This document shows positions 3,279 through 17,461 of a DNA stretch of 21,661 bases, piece after piece. The translations under genes and the position numbers were made by a program. Position 1 is the stretch's first letter, and every line of letters begins with the position of its first letter. The notes beneath the pieces were generated by a model. It was not told the origin of the DNA and did not search any database. It worked only from the letters and a program-made list of their open reading frames with translations. The DNA comes from a virus, in IMG/VR virus record IMGVR_UViG_3300015171_000038, positions 1-21,661 of that record; one strand, given 5' to 3'.

Positions 3279-4124
3279 ATGATCTCGTACCACCCGCTAA
3301 GCGACCGCCAGCACGTCGGCCAGCACTGGGCCAAAGGTTTTAAAACCCTAGAGGAGCGCGGCATTGAGGACATTGCAAGCGCTATTTTAAAGTACGCCTG
3401 GTCCGGTATTGTCTGGAAAGATGGCACCCGGCTAAAAGCCAACTTCCTATTCTCCGACTACTGCGTCCTCGATATCGACGACGAGCTACACGAGTATAGT
3501 TTAGAGCAAGCTAAACAAGACTACTGCGACATGGTCCACGTCATCGGTACGACGCGCAGTCACCGCAAACTAAAGAACAACACCGTGTGCGACCGCTACC
3601 GGATCGTCACCCCGTGGGACCGGCGCATCGACGACCGGCTCTTATACGAAGGGAATATGCAGTGGCTGCGTAAGAAGAACGACGCCATCGACGGCTCGAC
3701 ACTTAGCGGCGCACAGCATTTTTTTCAGTGCATAGAAATCGTTAGCATGTCAACCGAAGGCTACAAACAGGACGTTCTGAATAAGAAAACCAAGGAGGAC
3801 GTGACAGGGGCGGCCGAGTACGAGGCATACTTAAAGGCTCGACGGTGCGAATACGGGTTCCTAAAACGACTGCCCGACTGGGTCGAACGGTTTCTACGCG
3901 AAGGCGAGAAGGCCGCGGGCAAGCGTCACTATAAAACTCTCGCCGTCGCCATCGCCATGGTCGAACACGGCCTGCCAGTGGAGGAAATACATGACCGACT
4001 AACCAAAGTGCCAATCTCTCGCGAGTATCGACCCGGTGAAGTTATAGGCCTCATTCGGTATGCACAGCAGACGTTGAAGGGGAAGTTGCGCGATGGCGAA
4101 AATCAAAAAGGCAGTGATCTATAA
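3279..4124 (+). CDS. Primase, archaeo-eukaryotic (PrimPol-like) type, predicted (281 aa)
   Basis: The N-terminal half shows the three-part signature expected of AEP-family primases: VLDIDD (D65, D67) for motif I, TTRSH (S94, H95) for motif II, then AIDGS with D138 followed by an aromatic-rich strand (AQHFFQC) for motif III. The C-terminal 100 residues are helical, as in primase accessory domains. It would make RNA or DNA primers at the phage origin. The immediately downstream overlapping gene is a D5-like helicase, the usual partner of such primases. ATG 3279 has AGGTG 8 bases upstream. The last 32 bases overlap the helicase gene. The motifs are partial, so a catalytic assay or structure comparison would be decisive. 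Confidence 0.68.
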   Translation: MISYHPLSDRQHVGQHWAKGFKTLEERGIEDIASAILKYAWSGIVWKDGTRLKANFLFSDYCVLDIDDELHEYSLEQAKQDYCDMVHVIGTTRSHRKLKNNTVCDRYRIVTPWDRRIDDRLLYEGNMQWLRKKNDAIDGSTLSGAQHFFQCIEIVSMSTEGYKQDVLNKKTKEDVTGAAEYEAYLKARRCEYGFLKRLPDWVERFLREGEKAAGKRHYKTLAVAIAMVEHGLPVEEIHDRLTKVPISREYRPGEVIGLIRYAQQTLKGKLRDGENQKGSDL

Positions 4125-5394
4125 CATGATGGCAAGGAGGATCGAGGCGGGGGATTTAGATGAAAAATACTGCTCATATGAGCCGAGCTGCGGCGTGCGC
4201 GTGCCGCTAAAGATAATAGAGGAGCCCGACGTGGTCAGCGTCGTGCCACTCTCAGCGATCACCCACAGTATTCTTACAAGGTGTGAACGGGAGGATATGA
4301 AACCTTCGGCCGAATTGCAACTGACACAAGAAGAGGCCGTGTCGGCCTCCAAGTACTGGCTCGGCTTTATCACCCCCAAGCCCGAGCCTAAATGCTTTAG
4401 CTGGCCCGGCGAGACCGGCCTGACCTTCCAACGCCTGCCGTGGCCCGCGGCCGAAGGGCCGACGCCGACGTGGGACGCGCTGCTCGGACGCATGAGCAAT
4501 AAAGAGGCCTTCACAGCCTTTATCGGATCGCTCTTTGTCGAGGAAAGCTACGCCCAGCAGTACTGCTGGGTCTTCGGCGCCGGCGGCGAAGGCAAGGGCT
4601 GCATTAACCGGTTTTTAGAGAAAGTCTTTGGTCGCGCCTACTGTAGTAAGCAGCCGCCAGAACGAGGCGATAAGTTTTGGAGTTTTGGGCTTATCAACAA
4701 GCGCATCGTCGTCTTCCCCGACTGCAACAACACCGGCTTTACGGCGGGGGGTGTCTTCAAGTCCCTGACCGGCGGGGACCCGATCAGCGTCGAAGCCAAA
4801 GGCGAAATGTCTTACGTGGCCAAGCTGCGCGCCAAGTACCTATTTTTCTCCAACGAACAACCGTCGCTGTCGTCCGAACGGGCCGACATGCGGCGCATCA
4901 TATACTGCGAGATGACCCCGCGCGAGACCGACGAGGTGGACCCGACCTTTGAAGAGCGGCTGTGGGCCGAGGGTGGCGTTTTTATAGGCAACTGTCTCGC
5001 CTTCTACCGGAAGAAGTGCCCCAACCACTGCGCCATACCGACCGACCACGACGCCATCAACGACCGGGTTGAGGAGCTCGAAGCCGAGCATGAGGCGACA
5101 CTGGCGACCTACTTCGACCGTCCCGCCGTCAGTGTATGCACCGAGTGGGCGACCGGTCGAGAGGTCTGGGCGACCCTGACCCAAAACGCTCATATGAACC
5201 GGCGGCAAATAGAGGCCTTCCTTAGCTGGTTGAAAAGAAAGCACAATATCTGCCGTAAGAAGATCGGGAAAAGCGGAGCGAAGGCATACGACCGGTTGAA
5301 AATAAAGCCGATCAGCCGGCCTAAAAAAGACTCCGGTCAGTCCTCATATGCCGACCGGCAAGAGGACCGGCAAGAGGACCGGCGAGAGGATTAG
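4093..5394 (+). CDS. Superfamily 3 (D5-like) replicative helicase (433 aa)
   Basis: The centre of the protein (about 155-275) carries the SF3 set: P-loop GAGGEGKG (162-169, K168), Walker B RIVVFPD with D210, the D5-type FKSLTGGDPISVEAKG, motif C YLFFSNEQP with N254, and a downstream RRIIYCEMTP likely to contain the arginine finger. The P-loop ends GKG rather than GKS/T. The C-terminal 90 residues are basic and may bind DNA. The start at 4093 has GGGGAAG 7 bases upstream. It probably unwinds the iteron region that begins at its own stop codon and works with the overlapping primase. The tail encodes a repeated DRQE motif from tandem 12-bp repeats. Confidence 0.88.
   Translation: MAKIKKAVIYNMMARRIEAGDLDEKYCSYEPSCGVRVPLKIIEEPDVVSVVPLSAITHSILTRCEREDMKPSAELQLTQEEAVSASKYWLGFITPKPEPKCFSWPGETGLTFQRLPWPAAEGPTPTWDALLGRMSNKEAFTAFIGSLFVEESYAQQYCWVFGAGGEGKGCINRFLEKVFGRAYCSKQPPERGDKFWSFGLINKRIVVFPDCNNTGFTAGGVFKSLTGGDPISVEAKGEMSYVAKLRAKYLFFSNEQPSLSSERADMRRIIYCEMTPRETDEVDPTFEERLWAEGGVFIGNCLAFYRKKCPNHCAIPTDHDAINDRVEELEAEHEATLATYFDRPAVSVCTEWATGREVWATLTQNAHMNRRQIEAFLSWLKRKHNICRKKIGKSGAKAYDRLKIKPISRPKKDSGQSSYADRQEDRQEDRRED
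5353..5388 (+). repeat. Three tandem 12-bp repeats at the helicase 3' end
   Basis: GACCGGCAAGAG is repeated at 5353-5364 and 5365-5376, with a one-base variant at 5377-5388. It encodes DRQE-DRQE-DRRE at the extreme C-terminus of the helicase and runs directly into the iteron cluster. It may be a simple slippage repeat or part of the origin's binding array. Confidence 0.85.
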
Positions 5395-5516
5395 GAGACG
5401 GCAGGAGACAGCAGGGGGACAGCAGTTGGGACGGCACAGAACCTTTGGGAGAGTAGGTGGAGACAGCAGAGACAGCATATTTTGTGAATCACATCAGGAA
5501 ATATAATACATAATAG

Positions 5517-5525
5517 TTATCCACA
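5517..5525 (+). promoter_or_regulatory. DnaA box
   Basis: TTATCCACA is an exact match to the bacterial DnaA consensus and sits in the AT-rich core between the two iteron arms. It suggests that the host initiator helps open this origin. Confidence 0.75.
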
Positions 5526-5629
5526 GGGGCGTACGTATATATAGGGTTGCATTTGTTTTTCGATTTTTGCTGTCTCTGCCGTCTCCGCCTAGAGCCCCAA
5601 GGGATTGGTGTTGTCTCCCCTGCTGTCCC

Positions 5630-5652
5630 GGAGACAGCACGGTGCTGTCTCC
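5630..5652. repeat. Perfect 23-bp palindrome made of two iterons
   Basis: The arms GGAGACAGCAC and GTGCTGTCTCC are perfectly complementary around one G. The left arm can also pair with TGCTGTC at 5621-5627. No T run follows, so an intrinsic terminator is unlikely. A binding site for a dimer, or an extruded hairpin at the origin, fits better. Confidence 0.85.
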
Positions 5653-5674: not shown

Positions 5675-5708
5675 TGTGCGTAAATTAAGCAGTCTGTGCG
5701 TAAATTAA
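5675..5708 (+). promoter_or_regulatory. Direct repeat upstream of the accessory operon
   Basis: TGTGCGTAAATTAA occurs at 5675-5688 and again at 5695-5708, a period of 20 bases or about two helical turns. The second copy ends just before the AGGAGG of the next gene. Spacing on one face of the helix suggests paired binding sites for a regulator of the rightward accessory genes. Confidence 0.55.
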
Positions 5709-5723
5709 ACAGGAGGTGGAGAG

Positions 5724-10014: not shown

Positions 10015-10421
10015 TGATTCAACCGGAAGTGTTTTGGTCGAAAGTTGACTTCATTCCGTTTCACGACTGCTGGGAATGGGCTGGTAATAAAGTCTATAGC
10101 GGCTATGGCGCCTATAGTAAGAAGCGAGCGCATCGTATCGCTTTTGTTTTGTCATCTAAACGAGCAATCCCTGACGGTCTGCATGTACTGCATAAGTGCG
10201 ACAATCGATCCTGTGTTCGTCCGGATCATTTATACCTAGGCACGCATACTCAAAACATGCGCGATAAAGTCGCTCGTGGCAGAGATCACAATAAGGTCAA
10301 GACCACTTGTCGTAACGGGCATCCGTACTCGGGCGCTAATTTGATCGTAAAGAAGAGTGGAGAGAGACGCTGTCGAGAGTGTCATAACGTTCAACTAAGA
10401 CGTTATCGTGAAAGCCGTTAG
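10014..10421 (+). CDS. HNH endonuclease (homing type) inserted between terminase genes (135 aa)
   Basis: The HNH core is clear: AHRIAFVLSSKRAIPDGLHVLHKCDNRSC followed by RPDHLYLGTHTQNMRD and ARGR, with H60, N64 and H72 as likely metal/catalytic residues. A C-terminal zinc finger follows (C99, H103, C120, C123). This architecture is typical of free-standing phage HNH homing endonucleases. It starts with GTG 10014 overlapping the small terminase stop and ends 14 bases inside the large terminase gene. It is AT-richer than the flanks. It may be a mobile gene; some HNH proteins also assist terminase cutting. Confidence 0.9.
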   Translation: MIQPEVFWSKVDFIPFHDCWEWAGNKVYSGYGAYSKKRAHRIAFVLSSKRAIPDGLHVLHKCDNRSCVRPDHLYLGTHTQNMRDKVARGRDHNKVKTTCRNGHPYSGANLIVKKSGERRCRECHNVQLRRYRESR

Positions 10422-11772
10422 TAATACGATCACGATCGGCCCCCAACCTGGACCGCAAACGCATTTTTTGTCCTCACCGGCCAACATCGCCATATTCGGC
10501 GGCGCTGCTGGCGGTGGTAAATCGTATGCGCTTTTACTCGAACCTTTACGGCACTTCGCGAACCCTAGGTTCGGCGCGGTAATCTTTCGGCGCAATAGTG
10601 TTCAAGTGCGCAATGAAGGGGGGTTGTGGCAAGAAAGCATCAGTCTTTACAGTATGTTGAACGGCTACCCGCGCCAATCGTCGCTTGAGTGGGCATTCCC
10701 GTCTGGCATGCGCGTCAAGTTCGCACATCTTGAGATGGACTCTAGCGTCTACGATTGGCAGGGATCACAGATCGCCATGATCGGCTGGGACGAGCTGACG
10801 ACGTTCACCGAGAAGCAGTTCACGTTTATGATGTCGCGCAACAGGTCGAGCTCTGGCGTGCCGGGCTATATGCGCGCGACGTGTAACCCCGATGCCGACA
10901 GTTGGGTCCGTCGCTGGGTCGACTGGTGGATCGACGCCGACGGCTATCCTATCCCCGAGCGTAGCGGCAAGCTGCGTTGGTTCCTACGGCGCGACGACAA
11001 CTTAGTCTGGGCCGACACGCGCCAGGCGCTGCTCGACCAGTACGGGGCCGACGAGCTGCCGAAGTCGTTCACGTTCATCCCTGCTAAGATCGAAGACAAC
11101 CCGATCCTAATGGAGAAGGATCCGTCGTACCGCGCCAACCTGCGCGCCCTGAGTCGCGTCGACCGTGCGCGCCTAGAGCTGGGCAACTGGAACGTGCGTG
11201 CTAGCGCCGGCATGCTCTTTCGCCGCGAGTGGTTCCCTATCGTCGACGCGGTGCCGGCTGGTTGGAACCGGGCCGTGCGAATGTGGGACCGTGCGTCGAC
11301 CAAGCCCAACGCCAACAACAAAGACCCCGACTGGACGCGTGGCCTAAAGCTTTACGGCTATCCCGATGGCTCGTTCGTCGTGGTCGACCTAAAGTCGCTG
11401 CGTGACACGCCGGGCCAGGTGGAGAACCTGATTAAAAACGTCGCTAGCCACGACACGCAGTCTTGTCGCATTATGAGCCAACAAGACCCCGGTTCAGCAG
11501 GTGTGGCAGAGGCCGCTAACTTCGTGAAGATGCTTGGTGGCTATAGCGTGCGTACGGTGATCATGTCGAAGGACAAGGTTACGCGCGCCAAGCCTGTCTC
11601 GGCGCAGGCCGAGGTCGGCAACATCAAGGTGTTACGTTCCACGTGGAACAATGAGTTTTTCAATGAGCTTGAGAACTTCCCTGATGGCGCTCACGACGAT
11701 ATCGTCGACGTGCTGTCGGGCGCGTTTAACGAGCTCGCGGGCAAGGGGCGTTCGATTCTGGATGTCTTATAG
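10408..11772 (+). CDS. Terminase large subunit (454 aa)
   Basis: This is the packaging ATPase and nuclease. ATPase domain: Walker A IFGGAAGGGKS (K38), Walker B MIGWDE (D128, E129), coupling motif around MRATCNPD (155-162). Nuclease domain (RNase H fold): D294 in MWDRAS, D360 in QQDPGSAG, and D430/D431 in GAHDDIVD, the usual three acidic positions. Length is normal for the family. The GTG 10408 start has only a weak ribosome binding site and overlaps the HNH gene by 14 bases, which suggests the HNH insertion altered the original junction with the small subunit. Confidence 0.95.
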   Translation: MKAVSNTITIGPQPGPQTHFLSSPANIAIFGGAAGGGKSYALLLEPLRHFANPRFGAVIFRRNSVQVRNEGGLWQESISLYSMLNGYPRQSSLEWAFPSGMRVKFAHLEMDSSVYDWQGSQIAMIGWDELTTFTEKQFTFMMSRNRSSSGVPGYMRATCNPDADSWVRRWVDWWIDADGYPIPERSGKLRWFLRRDDNLVWADTRQALLDQYGADELPKSFTFIPAKIEDNPILMEKDPSYRANLRALSRVDRARLELGNWNVRASAGMLFRREWFPIVDAVPAGWNRAVRMWDRASTKPNANNKDPDWTRGLKLYGYPDGSFVVVDLKSLRDTPGQVENLIKNVASHDTQSCRIMSQQDPGSAGVAEAANFVKMLGGYSVRTVIMSKDKVTRAKPVSAQAEVGNIKVLRSTWNNEFFNELENFPDGAHDDIVDVLSGAFNELAGKGRSILDVL

Positions 11773-16702: not shown

Positions 16703-17461
16703 ATGGTTGTTGCAGCAGGCGCCCTAACTCTGGTTTCGGTAAGCTCTACTACGGTCAATGCCACGTCGGCAGTGGCTACTGGCGGCACCGGACCGTACAC
16801 TTACCAGTGGTACCGCTCCACCACGTCGGGCTTTAGCCCTGGCGGCGGTAGCCTTATCTCTGGCGCGACGTCCCTGACGCTCGCCGACACGGGTCTTATC
16901 CCTAACACGACCTACTACTACAAGGTTGTAGCGACCGACAGCTTGGCTGCCACGGGCACCTCTTCTCAGCTGACGGCTGTGACGTCGGTCCCGGTCCAAA
17001 GCCCCAACCAGTTTGCTCAGTCAGCCTTCCTCGGCATGATCGACCTGCGCTTCCCGCTGAACAGCGTCTCGGTGCTGGTCGACGTGAGCCAGGCCACTGC
17101 TCTCTACGCTGGCTCGGCCGTCAAGATGGTCGACAGCGCCGACGGCGTGCCGAAGGTCGTGGGCTGCGCCGCAAACAGCGACGAAGTCCTGGGCTTCATC
17201 AACTTCGACATCAAGACCGTGCAGTTCCTCGCGGGCGCACCGGCCGAGATTTCGATGTCCGGCAACGTCATGTACCTCTATGCGACCACGGCGATTGCTC
17301 GCGGCGCGCAGGTACAGCTTGACCTTTCGACCAATGGCGGCGTCGCCGCGGTTGTCGGTGCGAGCGGTGCGGACATCGTCGGCTGGGCTTACGACAAAGC
17401 GTCGGCAGCTGGCGCCTTGATTCGCGTGTACATCAAAACTCCTAGCTTCCTGAAAGCCTAA
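16703..17461 (+). CDS. Head decoration/cement protein with N-terminal Ig/Fn3-like domain (252 aa)
   Basis: ATG 16703 has AAAGGAA nearby. Residues about 5-95 have the Ser/Thr/Gly-rich beta pattern of an immunoglobulin or fibronectin III-like surface domain: GTGPYTYQWYRSTTSGFSPGGG, then LTLADTGLIPNTTYYYKVVATDS. Residues 100-252 (NQFAQSAFLGMIDLRFPLNS... to VGWAYDKASAAGALIRVYIKTPSFLKA) resemble capsid cement proteins, which sit just before the major capsid gene, as here. Ig-like domains on phage heads are known to give weak binding to surface sugars or mucins; that role is inferred. Confidence 0.8.
   Translation: MVVAAGALTLVSVSSTTVNATSAVATGGTGPYTYQWYRSTTSGFSPGGGSLISGATSLTLADTGLIPNTTYYYKVVATDSLAATGTSSQLTAVTSVPVQSPNQFAQSAFLGMIDLRFPLNSVSVLVDVSQATALYAGSAVKMVDSADGVPKVVGCAANSDEVLGFINFDIKTVQFLAGAPAEISMSGNVMYLYATTAIARGAQVQLDLSTNGGVAAVVGASGADIVGWAYDKASAAGALIRVYIKTPSFLKA

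Follow-up and report, generated by a model that had tools for sequence, protein, structure and literature searches.

A mirrored iteron array around an AT-rich core 3' of an SF3-like helicase gene as probable replication origin of a tailed phage

The window, i.e. the whole stretch of DNA analysed here, is the entire IMG/VR record IMGVR_UViG_3300015171_000038 with a length of 21,661 bases. It is a genome fragment, and the repeat regions described here are those of this part of the genome. Terminase large subunit, portal, head morphogenesis and major head proteins are all encoded in the window. Based on the genes for the terminase large subunit, the portal and the major head protein, the window was assigned to a tailed phage; with these genes of its own it does not fit a PICI satellite, which uses the capsid and packaging functions of a helper phage. 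The terminase large subunit (10408-11772) shows about 54-55% identity to those of the archaeal Methanoculleus virus Blf4 and of Rhizobium phages. The left end of the window is the replication module, with the following two genes:

3279 to 4124, forward strand: primase-like protein of 281 aa (weak match to PHROG 2135, DNA primase, E 1.6e-5)
4093 to 5394, forward strand: SF3-like helicase of 433 aa (PF19263, DUF5906, E 1.6e-13)

The primase-like protein is 29% identical (E 1e-21) to the PriCT-1-carrying primase of the uncultured phage MW202458. The strings VLDIDD and TRSH were assigned to AEP motifs I and II by visual inspection, and no Pfam match was obtained for the ORF itself. The product is probably a primase of the archaeo-eukaryotic type with a gene separate from that of the helicase.

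The helicase features a Walker A motif (GAGGEGKG) and a motif-C-like string (FFSNEQP), and is matched by PHROG primase/helicase families. It shares the DUF5906/SF3 ATPase core (PF19263) with the P4-type primase-helicases. Comparison of a profile of 12 relatives, with the window helicase as first row, yielded PDB 7ola (E 9e-46), the SaPI5 primase-helicase. Pfam returned no D5_N (PF08706) match for the window helicase; this domain was matched in A2, phi105, Blf4, AcaML1, Acinetobacter phage 4316 and the E. coli phage-plasmid. At its C-terminal end, the helicase can be aligned with the relatives but has no Pox_D5 or winged-helix Pfam match, and the AlphaFold model of the protein, with a pLDDT of 37, was too poor to reveal a DNA-binding domain there. 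Identity to the aligned relatives is only 14-22%, and searches with the window helicase alone found no relatives in viral or genome contigs. The helicase is presumed to be the initiator (Rep).

An array of GGAGACAGCA iterons overlaps the helicase gene by a single base, the final one of the stop codon, and has the following features:

5394 to 5436, forward strand: left outer iterons, four copies (starts 5394, 5404, 5415, 5427)
5440 to 5457, reverse strand: left copy of an 18-bp element, CCTACTCTCCCAAAGGTT (second-best match of the window, p 6.7e-6 per position)
5459 to 5477, forward strand: left inner iteron pair (starts 5459, 5468; 9-bp spacing)
5478 to 5567, no strand: AT-rich core (31% GC compared to 57% for the window; lowest-GC 90-mer of the window)
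5517 to 5525, forward strand: DnaA-box-like TTATCCACA (exact; sole exact copy in the window)
5568 to 5586, reverse strand: right inner iteron pair, inverted (starts 5568, 5577; 9-bp spacing)
5588 to 5605, forward strand: right copy of the 18-bp element, CCTAGAGCCCCAAGGGAT (best match of the window, p 4e-9 per position)
5609 to 5652, reverse strand: right outer iterons (5609-, 5621-, 5630+, 5643-)
Exact GGAGACAGCA copies, four: 5404+, 5459+, 5630+, 5643-
One-mismatch copies, six: 5394+, 5415+, 5468+, 5568-, 5577-, 5609-
Weaker copies: 5621- (two mismatches) and 5427+ (three mismatches, TGGGACGGCA)

The 21.7-kb window contains ten GGAGACAGCA copies with no more than one mismatch, all of them within the 259-bp stretch 5394-5652. 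In 100 shuffled versions of the window, 1.2 such copies were counted on average and 6 at most, and none reached 10. The twelve-copy array of the first-pass annotation, composed of these ten copies and the two weaker ones, is thus far beyond what shuffles produce. Its location directly after the primase and SF3 helicase ORFs was likewise borne out, as were the flanking of an AT-rich core by iterons and the switch in orientation across this core, with six forward copies to the left and five inverted copies plus one forward copy to the right. The core is presumed to be the melting site. That annotation did not contain the 18-bp elements, the 9-bp-spaced inner pairs, the perfect 11-bp inverted repeat with a 1-nt spacer formed by the final two iterons (5630-5652), or an AT-rich 18-nt direct repeat (TGTGCGTAAATTAARCAG), two copies of which lie with a spacing of 20 bp at 5675-5712 between the array and the next ORF. 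The direct repeats are a possible operator or a possible extra part of the origin.

The iteron had been described as unfamiliar from known origins, which holds for the collections searched: two pattern scans of IMG/VR (79 stretches listed) revealed no arrays of the GGAGACAGCA iteron, the inspected clusters being coding repeats, and blastn of the array against 50,697 phage records gave no match. Since the iteron of the window was found nowhere else, conservation concerns the layout and not the iteron sequence.

Distant relatives of the helicase were compared by layout. A blind test was used, in which the 9-mers in the 320-330 bases past the helicase stop codon were grouped (at most one mismatch, both strands) and the size of the largest family was recorded. 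The window scored 11, while shuffles averaged 2-4. Values of 6-10 were obtained for Blf4, plasmids of Loigolactobacillus and Pseudonocardia, the phage-type plasmid pCF11, the E. coli phage-plasmid, phi105 and A2, with both orientations present in most of them. By the same test, no array was found 3' of the helicase in a Bradyrhizobium plasmid, Truckee, a haloarchaeal plasmid and MT835627.

Collection of P4-type helicase loci yielded 80 loci, of which 49 were non-redundant. These were picked by similarity to the A2/phi105 group and hence mainly represent that group; an array of at least five iteron copies lies directly 3' of the helicase in 39 of them, compared to 0 of 170 control windows. Of the 39 arrays, 32 change orientation at the core. 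The first-pass annotation had proposed to look for the array beside the helicase genes of relatives, and this comparison shows that the layout is kept in most of the examined relatives, whereas the iteron sequence varies from lineage to lineage and is unrelated between relatives. In the record of phage A2 (AJ251789), a rep_origin feature is annotated at exactly the corresponding place 3' of the helicase.

Two individual arrays were noted alongside this comparison. In Blf4 (L021), the primase/helicase gene is followed directly by GGGCAGGAA-type repeats in opposed orientations and then by a 33-bp inverted repeat, which makes 35819-36087 a candidate origin of an archaeal virus. NrS-1 is a model phage for primer-free DNA synthesis. 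Its genome (L258, AB746912) carries a thirteen-copy CTACACTTT-type array in mixed orientations at 17063-17442, directly 3' of the primase-polymerase gene and in a stretch annotated as hypothetical protein (17055-17456). This array is a candidate for the as yet unmapped origin of the phage, though it has no 18-bp element.

Repeats located between two same-direction genes, with an additional 18-nt tandem repeat (5675-5712) just upstream of the next ORF, could also be an operator or autoregulatory array, by which a phage regulator or the helicase itself would control the downstream genes and at which replication would not start. However, 10-12 sites mirrored around an AT-rich core are seldom seen in operators, and no sigma-70-like promoter was found near the array. 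That other helicase genes are followed by the same layout built from unrelated iterons, and that it is also seen at the annotated A2 origin, further argues against this explanation, which we regard as very improbable.

The window strand folds far better than shuffled sequences (z -7.6), and the plasmid pRN1 requires a 100-nt stem-loop 3' of its replication gene as origin (PMC4234260). The inverted arms might thus extrude a long hairpin or cruciform, of which the fold and not the iterons would be recognised. Inverted iterons, however, necessarily fold. In the 24 relatives compared, the stretches that separate the iterons show no complementarity from one arm to the other (0.42 identity compared to 0.41 for unrelated loci), which disfavours a stem-loop, and gap lengths are unequal in most of them. 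A conserved long stem-loop was rejected because it is not kept in relatives, and we give an origin of this kind only a very small chance.

The DnaA box of the first-pass annotation is present as a single exact TTATCCACA in the core, but it found no comparative support, with 2 boxes seen compared to 2.8 expected in the regions of the 49 relatives. It was thus rejected as a conserved part of the origin. At a DnaA-dependent origin, host DnaA would bind TTATCCACA and open the core, for which the position of the exact box within AT-rich DNA speaks. The window nevertheless has one exact box instead of the DnaA-box cluster of a DnaA-dependent oriC, and the phage encodes its own helicase and primase. 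We regard this explanation as very improbable as well.

Motif discovery on 38 mutually diverged downstream regions, from which the window had been left out, yielded a second conserved signal, the 18-bp element CYTACAGCCNCAAGGGAT, with 16-17 bits compared to about 10 bits in shuffled sets. When all positions of the window were scored on both strands with the weight matrix, the two best matches were located inside the array, one per arm, and both sit between outer and inner iterons. The same gap holds 27 of 32 elements in relatives. The right copy differs by one base from the element in loci L124 and L183. A search of IMG/VR with two exact forms of the element alone returned 80 loci; 35 of them lie inside arrays of at least six copies, compared to 5 of 141 control windows, and most of those with arrays have an SF3 or VapE-type helicase within 700 bases. 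Primases found together with the element carry Prim-Pol/PriCT-1 domains or the helical-bundle domain that takes its name from NrS-1. No recognisable copy of the element is present in Blf4, AcaML1, the E. coli phage-plasmid or NrS-1, so that it is not universal. One exception concerns the initiator type: at locus L178 (2674-2872), a distance of 25 bases separates the element from an array of nine iterons located within a Phage_rep_O gene. This may be chance, or an argument for a host factor.

Since the iterons vary with the helicase while the element remains constant, two different readers are argued for. Our leading guesses for the element are a signal for priming and a site bound by some shared factor. 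The primase-polymerase of NrS-1 requires an 8-nt template signal, which occurs once per genome strand (PMC7102993), and by analogy a priming role would be reasonable. Identity of the 18-bp element with this 8-nt recognition sequence was rejected, as the NrS-1 array does not contain the element. A fixed element orientation as sign of strand-specific priming was also rejected; orientations are mixed and the element is semi-palindromic. The broader proposal that primase/SF3-helicase origins widely have CYTACAGCCNCAAGGGAT in common as a second signal, either a start site of the phage primase or a site of a shared host factor, with the iterons as a fast-changing lock specific for each helicase and the element as the fixed part, is tentative and we would not give it even odds. 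No report of the element was found for AGCCACAAGGGA in the open-access literature, which is weak evidence for novelty with most subscription journals outside the scope of the search.

Origins of PICIs consist of two iteron sets around an AT-rich region 3' of the initiator gene, and rep together with ori supports plasmid replication (PMC6092414). The window resembles this pri-rep-ori organisation of SaPIs and other PICIs in the position of its array immediately 3' of the primase/helicase initiator, in the two iteron sets flanking an AT-rich region and in the match of its helicase profile to PDB 7ola. Unlike a satellite, however, the phage encodes terminase, portal and head proteins itself; further differences are its iteron sequence and the two copies of the 18-bp element inside the arms. 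The origin of phage A2 is also located 3' of a P4-type primase-helicase and shares the mirrored order of outer iterons, element, inner iterons and AT core, including two element copies. In contrast, its iteron is of the ACGGGAGGA type, its primase and helicase are fused and its protein similarity to the window is weak.

The alpha protein of phage P4 similarly unites helicase, repeat binding and an associated primase in one initiator, a likeness at the level of the protein. According to the pRN1 paper (PMC4234260), P4 has a primase of the bacterial Toprim type, whereas that of the window is a separate gene product of probable AEP type. In pRN1 as in the window, the origin directly follows the primase/SF3-helicase gene, but pRN1 has no iterons and needs its stem-loop, while the window is dominated by iterons and its fold is not kept in relatives. 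A lambda-O-type origin does not match the findings either, as the array is intergenic and the gene upstream encodes DUF5906, not Phage_rep_O.

Taken together, we propose that 5394-5652 is the replication origin of the phage and that the SF3-like helicase acts as its own initiator on the GGAGACAGCA iterons, a sequence-based reading to which we assign a probability of about 0.88. It is supported by an array beyond chance that lies 3' of the helicase and flanks the most AT-rich 90-mer, by the arrays and orientation switches in most of the relatives, the same pattern in more distant cases such as Blf4, pCF11 and NrS-1, the annotated rep_origin of A2 and the PICI layout, and by the 18-bp element, which is present in both arms and by itself recovers helicase-linked arrays. 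The candidate phage origin of the first-pass annotation thus gained support from the layout of relatives, the A2 record and the match to PICI origins (PMC6092414).

Binding, melting, priming and the start of replication at this site are what we infer from these observations. The helicase encoded upstream would bind the GGAGACAGCA iterons. As the two iteron arms face one another, a helicase ring would form on either flank of the core, the two in opposite orientation. After melting the AT-rich DNA, the rings would separate, and initial primers would be made by the primase encoded next to the helicase. Both copies of the 18-bp element would be recognised by a constant partner, possibly the primase, for which they would be start sites, or a host factor.

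The layout of iterons, AT core and iterons is already known from SaPIs and other PICIs; here, it is found in a phage and with a new iteron. A divergent phage is thereby added to an origin class that the published survey held to be peculiar to phage satellites (PMC6092414). The occurrence of such origins in phages and plasmids, including the annotated origin of A2, suggests that this restriction is too narrow and that the class is common in both, reaching at least one archaeal virus. Its simple mirrored anatomy of outer iterons, element, inner iterons and AT core allows origins to be predicted from sequence, and purified primase and helicase offer a direct way to look for the partner of the conserved element.
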